Source: Crocosphaera watsonii WH 8501
Lineage (GTDB): Bacteria; Cyanobacteriota; Cyanobacteriia; Cyanobacteriales; Microcystaceae
Assembly (NCBI RefSeq): GCF_000167195.1
Contig: NZ_AADV02000021.1
Coordinates: 1-34,274, forward strand
Length of the DNA: 34,274 nucleotides
Direction: 5' to 3'
Positions 22,582 to 29,059 of the stretch are shown piece after piece. Made by a program: the position numbers and the translations under genes. A model generated the notes under the pieces. It was not told where the DNA came from. It did not search any database and saw nothing but the letters and a program-made list of their open reading frames with translations. Every line of letters begins with the position of its first letter. Positions within the stretch are counted from its first letter, which is position 1.

Positions 22582-22609
22582 TAATTGGACTTTGGATAAA
22601 AAACAATTG

Positions 22610-22630
22610 TTAGCGTAATTTTTACGCTAA
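22610..22630. promoter_or_regulatory. TTAGCG-N9-CGCTAA palindrome, left end of element L
   Basis: A 21-bp palindrome 26 bp inside the element end. The same 21-bp layout recurs at 24846, 26029, 27595 and 28134. Here the arms extend to TTAGCGTAA/TTACGCTAA apart from one base. Confidence 0.85.
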
Positions 22631-22749
22631 ACATATCTCCAGAGCTAAAATAGAGAATTAAGGTGATTTTAAAAACTCTCTTTCCATCTTTTTAGGGGAT
22701 TTTAAATATTAAATAGCTTCATTCAGTTTCGGTTCCAATATAGATATCT

Positions 22750-24450
22750 AAGTAGGGTTTGCTGAATAAAAGCAAAACCCTATTCTTTAAAAGGTTACAC
22801 CCATATTCGCGATCGCAAAAAAGATCAGCTTTGTCGGCTACAAACCGCTATAATTGGTAGAAACACCTCCCAGTTGTTGGTCAAGAACAAATGTATCGAA
22901 AAGAGGAGCAACCTTTACCGCCCCCAGAAAAATTTGAATTACCTTTCGAGGGCAAATTGTCCCCCAATAATCGTTGGGTAATCATGGCAGAGTTGATACC
23001 TTGGGATGATTTTGAGGAAGAATATGCTAAACTTTTTTCAGCAGAAAAAGGTGCGCCAGCCAAACTATTTAGAATGGCATTAGGGACATTAATTATTAAG
23101 GAAAAATTAGGAACAAGTGATAGAGAAACTATAGAACAGATTAGAGAAAATCCCTATTTACAATACTTTATAGGTTTAAATTGTTATCAACAAGAGCCAC
23201 CACTGGAATCTTCAATGCTAGTTCATTTTAGGAAAAGAATTGATGGAGAATTGATAAACAAAATCAATAAAAAAATAGTAAAAAGAGAAATAGACAAGAG
23301 TGATAAAGAAGTAAAAAAAAAGGATTGTCTCCAAGAAAAAGGAGAAAAAATAAAAAATAAAGGTAAACTAATTTTAGATGCGACTTGTGCGCCAGCAGAC
23401 ATCAAATACCCAACGGATTTAGGCATATTAAATCAAGCCAGAATTGAGACAGAAAGAATAATAGATAATCTTTATAAACCATTAAGAGTAAAATTGGGAA
23501 AAAAGCCGAGAACTTCTAGGAAAATTGCTAGAAAGGAATACTTAAAAGTAGCTAAAAAACGAAAATTATCTTATCAAGAAAGAAGAAAAGCTATCGGGAA
23601 ACAGTTAAAATACCTTAAGAAAAATTTAGGAAATATAGAAGACTTAATTCAAGCTGGGGCTTCCCTGGAAAATCTGAGTAAAAGACAGAAAAATTGTCTA
23701 GAGACTATCAAAAAAGTTTATGAACAACAACAGTCAATGTGGGAGAATAAGACCCAGAGTGTTCCTCAAAGAATTGTAAGTTTAACTCAACCGCGTATTC
23801 GTCCAATAGTGAGGAGAAAAGCAGGAAAACCAATAGAGTTTGGAGCTAAACTCTCAGTAAGCTGTGTAGATAACTATGTGTTTCTAGACAAAATAAGTTG
23901 GGAAAACTTCAATGAATCTTGTCATTTAAAAGAACAAGTAGAAAAGTATAAAGAAACGTTTGGCTATTATCCCGAATCCGTCCATGTAGATAAAATTTAT
24001 CGAACTAGGGAAAACAGAAATTGGTGTAAGGAAAGAGGGATAAGAATCAGTGGTCCGAAGTTAGGAAGACCTCCAAAAAATGTCAGTGAAGAAGAAAAGA
24101 AACAAGCCCACTCCGATGAATGCTTCCGTAATGCTATTGAGGGAAAGTTGGGACAAGCTAAACGAAGATTTAGCCTAAATCTCGTGATGACAAAACTCCC
24201 TGAAACCTCCATTACATCTATTGCTATTACATTTTTAGTTGTCAATCTTTCTAAACTTCTGAGGCAGTTTTTGTCGCTTTTTTTGTCCTTATTTACTAAT
24301 GATAGAACAGGGGAACTCATCAAGCCGCCTTTCATTAATTTTGATTATACTTTAAACAATTTTTATGTACTAAAACTTATTGATTTGTCAGAAAATTCTT
24401 GGTCAAAAGTGGCATAAATTTTGGAGAAACTTTTTCAGCAAACCCTAAGT
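22750..24450 (+). mobile_element. IS5-like element, copy B, complete, with AAGT duplications
   Basis: The IS itself is 22754-24446 (1693 bp). It starts AGGGTTTGCTGAATAAAAGC and ends TTTTTCAGCAAACCCT, so the ends are inverted repeats (AGGGTTTGCTGAA). The 4-bp target AAGT is duplicated at 22750-22753 and 24447-24450. The uninterrupted target is preserved at 28008-28020 in element R, which proves the insertion point. It splits the accessory gene of element L. Confidence 0.95.
22891..24417 (+). CDS. IS5-like transposase (copy B, intact)
   Basis: A 508-residue DDE transposase of the IS4/IS5 superfamily. The N-terminal DUF772/InsH-like part (about 1-130) is followed by the catalytic domain, split by a long basic, coiled-coil-like insert (about 190-300). 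Candidate catalytic residues are Asp in LILDATCAPADIKYPTD, Asp in VHVDKIYRTREN and Glu in RNAIEGKLGQAKRRF. The frame has none of the lesions of copy C, so this copy is the likely active source. The last codons run almost to the right terminal repeat. It recombined or transposed to at least three sites in this window. Confidence 0.92.
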   Translation: MYRKEEQPLPPPEKFELPFEGKLSPNNRWVIMAELIPWDDFEEEYAKLFSAEKGAPAKLFRMALGTLIIKEKLGTSDRETIEQIRENPYLQYFIGLNCYQQEPPLESSMLVHFRKRIDGELINKINKKIVKREIDKSDKEVKKKDCLQEKGEKIKNKGKLILDATCAPADIKYPTDLGILNQARIETERIIDNLYKPLRVKLGKKPRTSRKIARKEYLKVAKKRKLSYQERRKAIGKQLKYLKKNLGNIEDLIQAGASLENLSKRQKNCLETIKKVYEQQQSMWENKTQSVPQRIVSLTQPRIRPIVRRKAGKPIEFGAKLSVSCVDNYVFLDKISWENFNESCHLKEQVEKYKETFGYYPESVHVDKIYRTRENRNWCKERGIRISGPKLGRPPKNVSEEEKKQAHSDECFRNAIEGKLGQAKRRFSLNLVMTKLPETSITSIAITFLVVNLSKLLRQFLSLFLSLFTNDRTGELIKPPFINFDYTLNNFYVLKLIDLSENSWSKVA

Positions 24451-24829
24451 AGCTTTCAGTTAGAGATTGAATGACTCGTTCTAATTCATCAATGAGATTT
24501 CTTCTAGTGAGTTTTTCTACAGCATCAATATGAGCAGAACTTCCGGCTCGTCCTAAATATTTATATTTGGTTTTTTTCTCATTATTAGTGGCCATAGGAA
24601 AAATTGATTCAGCAGCCTGTAGTTTATAATACCAGTAGATTGTTCCCTTTCCATTAACCTGATAACGAATAATATGACAATTAGCTGGTGCTACTTCCCC
24701 TTCCCGTTCAATTTTCTTTATTTTCTGTTTAAGAGAGCGAATTAGACTCTTAATTTGTTTGGCTCTCAGGTGGACATCTTGACTGGTCTTAAGTTCGGAA
24801 TGTGATGACATTAGCCTTAACTGTAACAA
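24451..24829 (-). pseudogene. Accessory gene of element L, 3' end displaced by IS copy B
   Basis: Identical over its length to the intact accessory gene at 27632-28045 up to LTESYL, then runs into IS copy B. The open frame continues into the IS (to 24377) with foreign residues (GFAEKVSPKFM). The last codons of the original gene (DIYIGTETE) lie on the far side of the IS at about 22721-22753. It is interrupted but not otherwise mutated, so the IS insertion is recent. Confidence 0.85.
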
Positions 24830-24845
24830 ACAACCTCTTTTGATG

Positions 24846-24866
24846 TTAGCGTATATATTCCGCTAA
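24846..24866. promoter_or_regulatory. TTAGCG-N9-CGCTAA palindrome between the divergent genes of element L
   Basis: A 21-bp palindrome in the 61-bp gap between the accessory and transposase genes. It has the same arms and spacing as the end palindromes, placed where it could control both promoters. Confidence 0.85.
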
Positions 24867-24890
24867 TTTATAAGGTAATAAATTTTAAAA

Positions 24891-26002
24891 ATGACCAAAA
24901 ATGAAACGGCTACGTCTGTCGAGGAATTCCTGGTGTGGAGGTCTAACCTCTTCCAAGGACTAAAAGCTAGAAAAGAAACTATTATAGAATTACTCGATGC
25001 CCTCTCCAGTAACCAACAAGCTCACTCAGTCGTTGAATTGTCTCTCAATCCTTTATTTAGAAGAGATTATAACAGTTTATATAGAGGAATTCAATAGTTT
25101 TTACCCACTCAAACTGACCCTAATTATGAACAGAGAATTGAGACTTTATTTTCAGCGGTATCGAGAACAATTCCTCCCACTTCAAAACATTATAACTTAT
25201 TTGGTATTGACACAACTCCCTGTCCACGACCATTTGCCGAAACGTTAGCGGATAAAACCTTTATTCATTACCCCAATCCAATTAAGGGAAATAAACCCAT
25301 TAATATTGGACATTGTTATTCCGTTGTCTGCGCTTTACCTGACCAAATAGACACAGAAAAAGTCCCTTGGGCTGTCCCCTTATCAGGAGAGCGAGTCCCC
25401 TCTAAACATAAAGGAGTAAATCAAGGCAATCAACAACTAAAAAAAATCTGGCAAAGTTCTTTATTTTCTGATAAATTATCTGTCTTAGTGGCTGATAGTG
25501 ACTACAGCCAAAAGGATTTTATTGGGGAACAAGTTAAGCATGAAGACGTAGTTACTATTACAAGAGTTAGAAGTGACCGAGTTTTTTATCGTCAATTTAT
25601 TCGGGACCCAAATCAAGCCAAAACTTCGGGACATCCCCGTTGGTATGGGGATAAATTTGACCTTAAAGATGACCAAACTTGGACTGAACCTGATGAAGTT
25701 CATCATGTTCCCTTTACAACGAAAAAAGGTCGTCAATTAACAGTGACTATTTCGGGATGGAAACAGATGTTAATGAGAGGAACTAAAAACTATAAAATGA
25801 AAAATCACCCCTTTACTTTACTCCAGATTGTTGTCAGAGATCAAGAAAGAAATAGTATTTGGAAACCTATGTGGCTTATTGTTATTGGTTCTCGGCGCGA
25901 TGAGTTAAGTTTAGTTGATTATTATCAGTGTTATCGACAACGTTATGACATGGAAAATCTTTTTCGATTTGGTAAACAAAGATTATTGATGACATCTTAT
26001 TT
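24891..26002 (+). pseudogene. Transposase of element L: internal TAG and truncated 3' end
   Basis: It matches the element R transposase from MTKNETATSVEEFLVWRSNL onward. An in-frame TAG at 25095-25097 replaces the GAG of copy R (RGIQ-stop-FLPTQT). The frame then continues correctly through IDTTPCPRPFAETLADKTF, VLVADSDYSQKDFIG and RQRYDMENLFRFGKQRLLM, and is cut at TSYL by the end of element R. It keeps the five-A run that copy R has lost, so it supplies the correct frame for reconstruction. The last 24 codons of the apparent ORF (to 26054) are terminal-repeat sequence of R. Confidence 0.85.
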
Positions 26003-26028
26003 ATTGGACTTTGGACAAAAAAAGTTTG

Positions 26029-26049
26029 TTAGCGTATATTTTACGCTAA
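26029..26049. promoter_or_regulatory. TTAGCG-N9-CGCTAA palindrome, left end of element R
   Basis: A 21-bp palindrome with 8-bp arms (TTAGCGTA/TACGCTAA), 26 bp inside the left end. Its offset from the tip is the same as at the right end of R and the left end of L. Confidence 0.85.
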
Positions 26050-26131
26050 ACTAAAATCCCAAAATATCGGCTCTGTATCAGTCAATAAAATTGGCTGACA
26101 AATAGGGCTAATCTATAGATTCTGAGGAAAA

Positions 26132-27570
26132 CTAAGGAGCTTTTAAGTTTTCAGTTGATTTTTTGCTCCCTTTCTTGATAACATCATGACGAGTTCGTGG
26201 GGCTTTTTTGTAACCTTTAATACGTCCGGAAGAAAAACCTCGACGTTTGGGAAATTTGGCGAAAGTCCCCAAGGTCGTAATTATTCTTGAAAAGTCTCTT
26301 TGAACTAGACTAGGGGTGATTTTGATGGATTTATTAGTCTTCAAATACTGTTCCCAATCACGGGGTAAAACCACAGCTAATTTTCTGGCAGCCCACAAAT
26401 TTACATAAGAAAGAAGTGTTAGTTTAAACCAATTTTCTTCATGATGTACATCGGGAGTTAAATAAGATGTCATCAATAATCTTTGTTTACCAAATCGAAA
26501 AAGATGTTCCATGTCATAACGTTGTCGATAACACTGATAACAATCAACTAAACTTAACTCATCGCGCCGAGAACCAATAACAATAAGCCACATAGGTTTC
26601 CAAATACTATTTCTTTCTTGATCTCTGACAACAATCTGGAGTAAAGTAAAGGGGTGATTGTTCATTTTATAGTTTTTAGTTCCTCTCATTAACATCTGTT
26701 TCCATCCCGAAATAGTCACTGTTAATTGACGACCTTTTTTCGTTGTAAAGGGAACATAATGAACTTCATCAGGTTCAGTCCAAGTTTGGTCATCTTTAAG
26801 GTCAAATTTATCCCCATACCAACGGGGATGTCCCGAAGTTTTGGCTTGATTTGGGTCCCGAATAAATTGACGATAAAAAACTCGGTCACTTCTAACTCTT
26901 GTAATAGTAACTACGTCTTCATGCTTAACTTGTTCCCCAATAAAATCCTTTTGGCTGTAGTCACTATCAGCCACTAAGACAGATAATTTATCAGAAAATA
27001 AAGAACTTTGCCAGATTTTTTTTAGTTGTTGATTGCCTTGATTTACTCCTTTATGTTTAGAGGGGACTCGCTCTCATGATAAGGGGACAGCCCAAGGGAC
27101 TTTTCTGTGTCTATTTGGTCAGGTAAAGCGCAGACAACGGAATAACAATGTCCAATATTAATGGGTTTATTTCCCTTAATTGGATTGGGGTAATGAATAA
27201 AGGTTTTATCCGCTAACGTTTCGGCAAACGGTCGTGGACAGGGAGTTGTGTCAATACCAAATAAGTTATAATGTTTTGAAGTGGGAGGAATTGTTCTCGA
27301 TACCGCTGAAAATAAAGTCTCAATTCTCTGTTCATAATTAGAGTCAGTTTGAGTGGGTAAAAACTCTTGAATTCCTCTATATAAACTGTTATAATCTCTT
27401 CTAAATAAAGGATTGAGAGACAATTCAACGACTGAGTGAGCTTGTTGGTTACTGGAGAGGGCATCGAGTAATTCTATAATAGTTTCTTTTCTAGCTTTTA
27501 GTCCTTGGAAGAGGTTAGACCTCCACACCAGGAATTCCTCGACAGACGTAGCCGTTTCATTTTTGGTCAT
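26132..27570 (-). pseudogene. DDE-type transposase of element R, one-base deletion
   Basis: Restoring one A in the A4 run at 27101-27104 (A5 in element L) gives a single 479-residue protein that starts MTKNETATSVEEF and ends STENLKAP. The frame is otherwise open. Candidate catalytic residues, by position and context, are Asp in FGIDTTPCPRPFAE, Asp in VLVADSDYSQKDF and Glu in RQRYDMEHLFRFGKQRL, the last typical of the YxxEHxFRFxK block of IS701/DDE_5-like enzymes. The C-terminus is basic (RRGFSSGRIKGYKKAPRTR) and probably binds DNA. Neither copy in this window is functional. The 61-bp gap to the accessory gene holds the shared palindrome. Confidence 0.8.
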
Positions 27571-27594
27571 TTTTAAAATTTATTACCTTATAAA

Positions 27595-27615
27595 TTAGCG
27601 GAATATATACGCTAA
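27595..27615. promoter_or_regulatory. TTAGCG-N9-CGCTAA palindrome between the divergent genes of element R
   Basis: Arms TTAGCG and CGCTAA flank GAATATATA. Exactly 21 bp, like the terminal copies. It is centred between the transposase ATG at 27570 and the accessory start at 27632 or 27650. Confidence 0.85.
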
Positions 27616-27631
27616 CATCAAAAGAGGTTGT

Positions 27632-28045
27632 TTGTTACAGTTAAGGCTAATGTCATCACATTCCGAACTTAAGACCAGTCAAGATGTCCACCTGAGAGCC
27701 AAACAAATTAAGAGTCTAATTCGCTCTCTTAAACAGAAAATAAAGAAAATTGAACGGGAAGGGGAAGTAGCACCAGCTAATTGTCATATTATTCGTTATC
27801 AGGTTAATGGAAAGGGAACAATCTACTGGTATTATAAACTACAGGCTGCTGAATCAATTTTTCCTATGGCCACTAATAATGAGAAAAAAACCAAATATAA
27901 ATATTTAGGACGAGCCGGAAGTTCTGCTCATATTGATGCTGTAGAAAAACTCACTAGAAGAAATCTCATTGATGAATTAGAACGAGTCATTCAATCTCTA
28001 ACTGAAAGCTACTTAGATATCTATATTGGAACCGAAACTGAATGA
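27632..28045 (+). CDS. Element-encoded accessory protein, 131-137 aa
   Basis: An intact small protein transcribed away from the transposase. It starts at TTG 27632 (behind GAGG at 27624-27627) or at ATG 27650 (MSSHSELKTSQDVHLRAKQI). Layout: a basic helical N-terminus (KSLIRSLKQKIKKIERE), a beta-rich centre (HIIRYQVNGKGTIYWYYKLQ and KKTKYKYLGRAGSSAH), and a helical C-terminus (RRNLIDELERVIQSLTESY). The centre recalls small proteins with a G-x-IYxYYx...YLGR pattern (DUF6788-like) found near transposons, but I cannot confirm the family. A high Lys/Arg content and the divergent operator suggest a DNA-binding regulator or transposition helper. That role is inference. It is the only undamaged gene of the L/R pair. 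Confidence 0.7.
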   Translation: MLQLRLMSSHSELKTSQDVHLRAKQIKSLIRSLKQKIKKIEREGEVAPANCHIIRYQVNGKGTIYWYYKLQAAESIFPMATNNEKKTKYKYLGRAGSSAHIDAVEKLTRRNLIDELERVIQSLTESYLDIYIGTETE

Positions 28046-28133
28046 AGCTACTTAATATTTAAAATCCCCTAAAAAGATGGAAAGAGAGTTTTTAAAATCA
28101 CCTTAATTCTCTATTTTAGCTCTGGAGATATGT

Positions 28134-28154
28134 TTAGCGTAAAAATTACGCTAA
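28134..28154. promoter_or_regulatory. TTAGCG-N9-CGCTAA palindrome, right end of element R
   Basis: A perfect palindrome, TTAGCGTAA-AAA-TTACGCTAA, 26 bp inside the right end. It is the most symmetrical of the five copies. Confidence 0.88.
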
Positions 28155-28180
28155 CAATTGTTTTTTATCCAAAGTCCAAT

Positions 28181-28931
28181 CCCGAACTTGTTTGCCTTTA
28201 TAGCCAAAAACCTGATATTTATCCCCCGTCATGGTACATTTCATCAGATAGGATAAAAAGCCATGAAGCTTGGTTCCTGAATGGCTCGGACCAGTTAAAC
28301 AACCACCACGAAAACAGGCAGTTTTCATGTCAAAGTAACGCCCATATTCCTGAACTAAAACATCAGCCGCTACTTTAGAAACCCCAAACAAGGAATGTTT
28401 ACATTGATCAATACTCATGGATTCATCAATTCCTGGACAGTAACCATGATTAGCATCTATTTCCCAACGAAATTCTTGTTCTACTAGGGGTAAATAATTG
28501 GGGGTATCTCCATAGACTTTATTAGTAGAACAGAAAATGAAGACAGCTTCTGGACATATTTGACGGGTATGTTCTAATAATACTAGGGTTCCGTTAGCGT
28601 TGATAGTAAAATCCATGTGGGGATCTTTCGCTGCCCAGTCATGGGATGGTTGGGCTGCTGTATGAATAATCAACTTAATATCTGTGCCGTAAGTTTTGAA
28701 AATTTCTGCGATCGCTTCATTTTCACGAATATCAGCCCCATAATGGATATAGCGATCGCCGTATTCTTCCGTTAGACGAATGCGGTTCCATTCAGTTGAA
28801 GCATCTTCTCCAAAAAAGACACGACGCATATCATTATCAATGCCTACCACTGTATAGCCTTTATTGCAGAAAAACTTTACTGATTCTGAACCAATCAGTC
28901 CTGCCGATCCGGTTACTAAAACGATTTTCAT
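28181..28931 (-). pseudogene. NAD-dependent nucleotide-sugar epimerase (CDP-paratose 2-epimerase-like), 3'-truncated
   Basis: About 250 N-terminal residues of an extended SDR enzyme for surface-sugar synthesis. It has the Rossmann motif [15 protein letters not shown], the family-like [24 protein letters not shown]-type strand [19 protein letters not shown] and the active-site helix [20 protein letters not shown]. The usual catalytic Tyr of YxxxK is Phe here (F-G-V-S-K), which I believe is natural in this subgroup. The gene stops at YKGKQVRD, where element R begins; the remaining open codons ([10 protein letters not shown]) are element sequence. I chose the ATG at 28931, directly before the Rossmann strand. 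About 100 C-terminal residues are lost. Confidence 0.82.
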
Positions 28932-29059
28932 TGTTAATTTAAAATTGGGAAAACAGTTGATTAGCAGTGTAGGTGACATCCGCCAAAATAACAATAATTA
29001 AAAACCCTCACCTTTTATCTGGGGTCAGGGTAAATTAGAATGATTTTCTGGTCATTAAC

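Follow-up and report, generated by a model that had tools for sequence, protein, structure and literature searches.

Two copies of an insertion sequence (IS), R and L, lie side by side in the window, that is, the whole stretch of 34,274 nt of DNA that was analysed, and both carry a 21-bp palindrome, TTAGCG-N9-CGCTAA, just inside their tips as well as between their two divergent genes. This raises the question of which protein recognises the palindrome, and to what effect it does so at the ends and at the promoter of the same element. The first-pass annotation had reported five such sites, and all five are indeed exact and lie where it had placed them (22610, 24846, 26029, 27595 and 28134). Allowing up to two mismatches, the total for the window stays at five, a number reached in 0 of 100 shuffles of the window (mean 0.78 sites at the same tolerance), while base composition predicts 0.0013 exact matches per window. 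The features of the two copies are the following:

26004..28179, unstranded: IS copy R, 2176 bp, with ends TTGGACTTTGG...CCAAAGTCCAA
26004..26024, unstranded: terminal inverted repeat, left end of R
26029..26049, unstranded: terminal palindrome of R at the transposase end, TTAGCG-N9-CGCTAA
26132..27570, minus strand: transposase gene of R, NF041680 family / DDE_5, its frame broken into ORFs 27043-27570 and 26132-26974
27595..27615, unstranded: central palindrome of R, between the divergent genes, exact TTAGCG-N9-CGCTAA
27650..28045, plus strand: accessory gene of R, 131 aa when read from its ATG, with TTG at 27632 as a possible alternative start; its product is proposed to bind the palindrome
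28134..28154, unstranded: terminal palindrome of R at the accessory end, exact TTAGCG-N9-CGCTAA
28159..28179, unstranded: terminal inverted repeat, right end of R
22585..26003, unstranded: IS copy L, in the orientation opposite to R
22610..22630, unstranded: terminal palindrome of L, exact TTAGCG-N9-CGCTAA
22891..24417, plus strand: IS5-family transposase inserted in L, outside the palindrome system
24377..24829, minus strand: accessory ORF of L, its 3' end replaced via the IS5-family insertion
24846..24866, unstranded: central palindrome of L, exact TTAGCG-N9-CGCTAA
24891..26003, plus strand: transposase remains of L, with no single open frame, cut by copy R

Copy L is thus split by the IS5-family element and its transposase end is cut off by copy R, which leaves three complete ends in the window. 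In all three the palindrome does start at base 26, as the annotation had it, but the gap between tip and palindrome is 25 bp and not 26. Likewise, the intergenic distance of 61 bp given there is correct if translation begins at the TTG at 27632. Comparison with relatives speaks for the ATG at 27650, with which the gap widens to 79 bp; the central palindrome of R is then separated from the two start codons by 24 bp on the transposase side and by 34 bp on the accessory side.

The host genome contains 298 TTAGCG-N9-CGCTAA sites and 0 matches to a reversed control pattern, together with at least 31 full-length copies of the IS when 40 of 219 candidates are scored. Thirty host-genome copies were examined as loci (L016-L045), and full length is 2177 bp in 23 of them, R being one base shorter than most; a transposase frame of at least 430 aa is present in 17 of the 30 and is broken in R. 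All 30 keep the three sites, the central one included, with at most one arm mismatch each (16 have all three exact). A target duplication of 6-7 bp was found in 5 of the 30 copies, compared with 1% of random pairings, and one of 3 bp in 2, with none in the remaining 23; recombination between copies or misassembly of the draft could be the cause in the 25 copies lacking 6-7 bp. On one side R terminates within an ORF (28146-28994) that by eye resembles an NAD-dependent epimerase, and on the other it abuts copy L, which suggests a rearrangement there.

The transposase was assigned through the NCBIfam model NF041680 (cut-off 440), against which the close relative L065 scores 521 bits, above the cut-off, and the broken R transposase matches as two pieces of 151 and 327 bits. 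Transposases of this family also match the IS701 and IS4 models, in which they resemble both families, but the scores remain below cut-off for IS701 (cut-off 170; L065 74 bits, window piece 49 bits) as well as for IS4 (cut-off 115; L065 20.8 bits, window piece 19.5 bits). A further likeness to IS4 is that IS4-type transposases carry the same accessory gene and palindromes. In contrast to both families, the window IS has an extra gene with its own sites inside the element. It also departs from the dimensions given for IS701, being about 2177 bp long instead of 1400-1550 bp and having, where found, a target duplication of 6-7 bp instead of 4 bp (PMC2266710).

The product of the extra gene has no match above cut-off in Pfam or NCBIfam and no clear PHROG match, and the same search found no Pfam family for ten near and distant relatives and no PHROG match for five. 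No serine or tyrosine recombinase domain matches the accessory protein above cut-off, and L065 has a sub-threshold match to Arm-DNA-bind_1 (E 0.34). Relatives were detected in 22 of 386 genomes sampled from the phylum and in 73 of 388 sampled from the order. Named genomes yielded 185 confirmed accessory places, and among the best 80 of these, which were kept, 79 are cyanobacterial by title and one is a Gracilibacteria bin (L228). With the relative L147 as query, 40 plasmid records and no phage record matched; among the 20 plasmid matches listed the gene is annotated as a hypothetical protein or not at all, and two adjoin a tetratricopeptide-repeat label. In the host genome, 96 places match the accessory gene when fragments are counted. 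Five distant relatives (L159, L169, L172, L174, L384), of about 136-238 aa from stop to stop, had no palindrome found beside them.

The neighbours of the accessory genes are transposases of IS4, IS4/Tn5, ISKra4, IS1182 and NF041680 (NCBIfam), to which an IS701-like type below cut-off and a DUF6399 group are added. When each of 96 accessory loci is labelled by its best tblastn match within the flank, the counts are IS4 24, ISKra4 16, IS701-like 13, IS4/Tn5 9, NF041680 8, DUF6399 8, IS1182 2 and none 16, the labels of L192, L236 and L243 looking wrong because of nested or neighbouring ISs. The loci were scanned with the pattern TTMKCK-N9-MGMKAA, which was fixed after inspecting the sites in part of them, and a 6-9-6 palindrome turned up immediately upstream of the accessory gene in 73 loci, immediately downstream of it in 82 and at a greater distance in 55. 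For the two near places, which the spacer control covers, 14 other spacers in the same pattern gave 0-6 loci. Counted over 91 distinct accessory proteins, the upstream site is present in 68, the downstream site in 81, both in 63, all three in 36 and none in 3. Loci without TTAGCG mostly carry TTCGCG, TTCTCG or TTCTCT arms around a 9-bp spacer in the same places, and the layout is alike in divergent and same-strand gene orders, marking the outer limits and the accessory start. Judged from sequence, the three-site layout is not specific to the window IS and belongs to a module common to several transposase families.

Palindromes at the ends of an element could chiefly be RNA hairpins, acting as intrinsic terminators that halt outbound transcription at both ends. 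Indeed, both terminal palindromes of R resemble terminators in the outward direction by score (28134..28154 combines a hairpin with a T run), and they are the only 2 found, with 1.4 expected. Throughout the loci, T runs lie outward at 58 of 81 downstream sites (inward at 22) and at 32 of 50 far sites (inward at 4), and at the site upstream of the accessory gene they lie towards that gene in 30 of 68 cases and away from it in 11; furthermore, where an IS has no accessory gene next to it, the site is 3' of the transposase in the cases inspected. A terminator, however, needs neither fixed arm letters nor a 9-bp spacer across unrelated ISs, and the accessory-upstream site is wrongly placed for one. 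At the far end, T runs are outward in 10 of 20 cases and inward in 0 of 20 where the transposase mostly runs inward (at least one row, L223, being divergent), and the arms follow the accessory protein, as described below. We therefore regard a mainly terminating function as unlikely; the terminal palindromes may have a terminator role in addition.

As the two outer sites lie just inside the inverted repeats, the transposase might itself bind the palindrome, both at the ends and at its own promoter. The comparison of arm sequences with the two proteins argues strongly against this. Placed on a tree built from 83 accessory proteins, the arm classes can be explained by 11 changes, where shuffled classes require 32.2. 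Mantel tests were made on 67 of the 96 loci, after rows that were short, repeated, or lacking a label or a site had been set aside. Controlling for transposase family, arm distance correlates with accessory distance (partial r 0.34, 0 of 2000 permutations); controlling for accessory distance, it shows no relation to transposase family (partial r −0.01, 1222 of 2000 permutations). The same palindrome type accompanies unrelated families and, conversely, a single family can accompany different palindromes: NF041680 transposases pair with two accessory lineages, a single clade being rejected (p-AU 8e-6, 6 rows), one lineage with TTAGCG as in the window and the other with TTCGCG (L201 and L242, the L242 match being short). 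Binding by the transposase is thus, in our estimate, highly improbable. The annotation had favoured the accessory protein, with the transposase as alternative, and these correlations, along with a basic three-stranded-sheet model of the protein, agree with its preference. Its wider claim, that one protein serves the ends and the promoter, is strengthened insofar as the arms track the accessory protein across unrelated transposases and a residue-base pair can be discerned. On these sequence comparisons the accessory protein very probably recognises the palindrome at both ends and at its own promoter.

The residue-base correspondence was counted in 93 of the 96 loci, with near copies kept. Residue 85 of the accessory protein is His with C at arm base 3 in 83 rows and Tyr with A in 9, so that all 92 covering rows agree; the tenth row with A at this base has a gap at residue 85. 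Residue 63 is Lys with G at arm base 6 in 83 of 93 rows, Glu with G in 1 and Gln with T in 9. The window accessory protein has Lys at 63 and Tyr at 85. The tree tempers these numbers, in that Gln63 with arm base T occurs in one clade only and the switch at residue 85 amounts to two events, too few pairs for a sign test. A held-out set of 67 loci contributed 31 rows, counted for being below 95% identity to earlier rows, and with the strict scan residue 85 gave His/C in 19, Tyr/A in 3, Tyr/T in 1 and no site in 8, where one His/C row (L376) rests on a poor match and the Tyr/T row on a non-palindromic one. At residue 63 the same 31 rows gave Lys/G in 19, Gln/T in 1, Lys/A in 2 (both resting on poor matches), gap/T in 1 and no site in 8. 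A looser scan, adopted post hoc, recovered TTA sites in 3 of 5 Tyr rows negative under the strict scan (L341, L345, L352) and no TTA site in L361 and L364; L363 has one good arm only. A tree with 101 of 101 rows in agreement at residue 85 includes 20 of the 31 held-out rows that were added for having a site, and its count is biased accordingly; the one-clade test for the TTA rows gives p-AU 0.099 without the added held-out rows and 0.015 with them. We propose that residues 63 and 85 are candidate base readers of the palindrome arms.

The predicted structure of the accessory protein is compatible with such a role. An AlphaFold model built with 62 rows (pLDDT 90.7, pTM 0.78) has a long helix, three strands (45-53, 58-66 and 83-87) and a second long helix, and places residue 63 in strand two and residue 85 in strand three. 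The protein is basic, with a pI of 9.4 that rises to 9.7 for the core. A sequence search detected no relative of solved structure, and fold comparison with VIA-align returned weak, mainly helical matches. Folds that bind DNA through a three-stranded sheet are known, either arm-binding or AP2-like, and a sheet inserted in the major groove, with the helices pairing two copies of the protein, would fit a 21-bp palindrome whose arms lie 15 bp apart.

Palindromes also occur apart from accessory genes. In genomes of the same genus they are found 3' of IS4- and IS1634-family transposases, with no adjacent accessory gene where looked at; one exact palindrome is 3' of the transposase at L130:3431, L134:3403, L073:1824 and L136:1986, the family being named by profile match for L130 and L136, while L134 and L073 resemble L130 by eye. 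An IS66-family element (L125-L127, L085-L094 in the host genome, L141 and L080) has a pair of palindromes, at distances of about 86 and 210-215 bp from an end whose 18-bp sequence is present 61 times in the host genome; no accessory gene was found in the loci L125-L127. A multi-copy element of the host genome (L280:518, L281:3035), whose transposase we take to resemble ISAzo13, carries TTCGCG-N9-CGCGAA 3' of its genes, again with no accessory gene next to it in the cases inspected, and the host genome has 54 TTCGCG sites. Such palindrome-only ISs either use accessory proteins from elsewhere, or their site has a second reader or role.

These elements are what would be expected had many ISs adopted the site of a host DNA-binding protein, and the same-genus genomes G004 (93% complete) and G008 (91%), which have sites and no accessory match, also speak for a host factor. 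Against it, G002 and G007 of the same genus (98 and 99% complete) have no exact TTAGCG site, and two palindrome versions exist in one host, each with the matching accessory type. Indeed, at L383:2090-3817 the host genome has a second accessory gene beside an ISKra4 transposase, by eye of the His type, with three TTCGCG-type sites, one of them with an arm mismatch. Since TTAGCG and TTCGCG systems share a cell, a single host factor would not explain them, and we consider this origin of the palindrome improbable.

We thus return to the accessory protein, which we consider probable, from the sequence patterns, to be a DNA-binding protein acting at both ends and at the promoter, coupling autoregulation to transposition, in a module found across unrelated transposases. 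From the computed site layout, geometry, palindrome-accessory link and single-chain fold we infer binding, dimer formation, repression and an effect on transposition along the following lines. The IS would consist of a transposase gene and a divergent gene for a small DNA-binding protein that has cis sites of its own. This protein would act as a dimer held by its paired long helices, with two basic three-stranded sheets each reading one TT[A/C][G/T]C[G/T] arm, 15 bp from arm to arm. Since 24 bp separate the central site from the transposase start and 34 bp from the accessory start, a dimer bound there would be expected to lower the transcripts of both the accessory and the transposase gene. 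Similarly, each terminal site is set 25 bp in from its tip, next to the inverted repeat, and there a dimer would be expected to hinder or assist the transposase, altering its access or the pairing of the ends. The accessory gene and its palindromes together would be the module that has been joined to unrelated transposases.

The protein could instead primarily assist transposition, bending or pairing the ends, with the promoter site being secondary. The position of sites just inside both tips of the window IS and near the outer limits elsewhere is consistent with this, as are the T runs that adjoin the far sites also in groups whose transposase mostly points inward. On the other hand, the accessory-start site is kept in 73 of 96 loci, pointing to expression control as well. 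Such a primarily assisting function is possible, though we think it rather less than probable; it is inseparable by sequence from joint control of expression and transposition. We favour autoregulation combined with transposition control, hindrance and help being indistinguishable in the sequences.

Regulators that are encoded by an IS and bind both its ends and its promoter have precedents. IS1 encodes InsA, a small DNA-binding protein that attaches to the ends and represses the promoter of the element; InsA, however, belongs to the reading frame of the transposase and has the inverted repeats as its target, whereas the window accessory protein is separate, has its own palindromes, to which its binding is predicted, and is common to several IS families. 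In Tn3-type elements TnpR has sites in the gap between the divergent tnpA and tnpR genes and autoregulates. The divergent genes and the candidate regulator site in the gap are alike here, but the accessory protein has no recombinase match above cut-off and its sites are also at both ends. Phage Mu has a repressor and a transposase, with related sites at operator and ends that link regulation to transposition; the window IS shares this placement of related sites, although the Mu system is much larger and the searches made detected no relation between the proteins. To our knowledge, known IS regulators each belong to a single IS family. We found no description in the literature of a regulator with its own sites common to at least six transposase families, and as far as we could see it is new.

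We give about even odds to the fuller proposal of a self-contained control module, made of a protein family and its palindromes, exchanged among at least six unrelated transposase families in cyanobacteria. Such a module would follow a simple code between residues and bases, and the palindrome-only ISs might draw on it in trans. If a control protein does move with its own DNA sites among unrelated transposases, IS regulation would be separable and swappable, and the module would offer a natural recognition code open to experiment. It may also bear on how the host genome coexists with its many accessory-gene matches.

A last observation concerns genome G058, where palindrome pairs about 150 bp apart occur at L066:1073-1243 and L067:492-670, most of the accessory gene seemingly missing between them.
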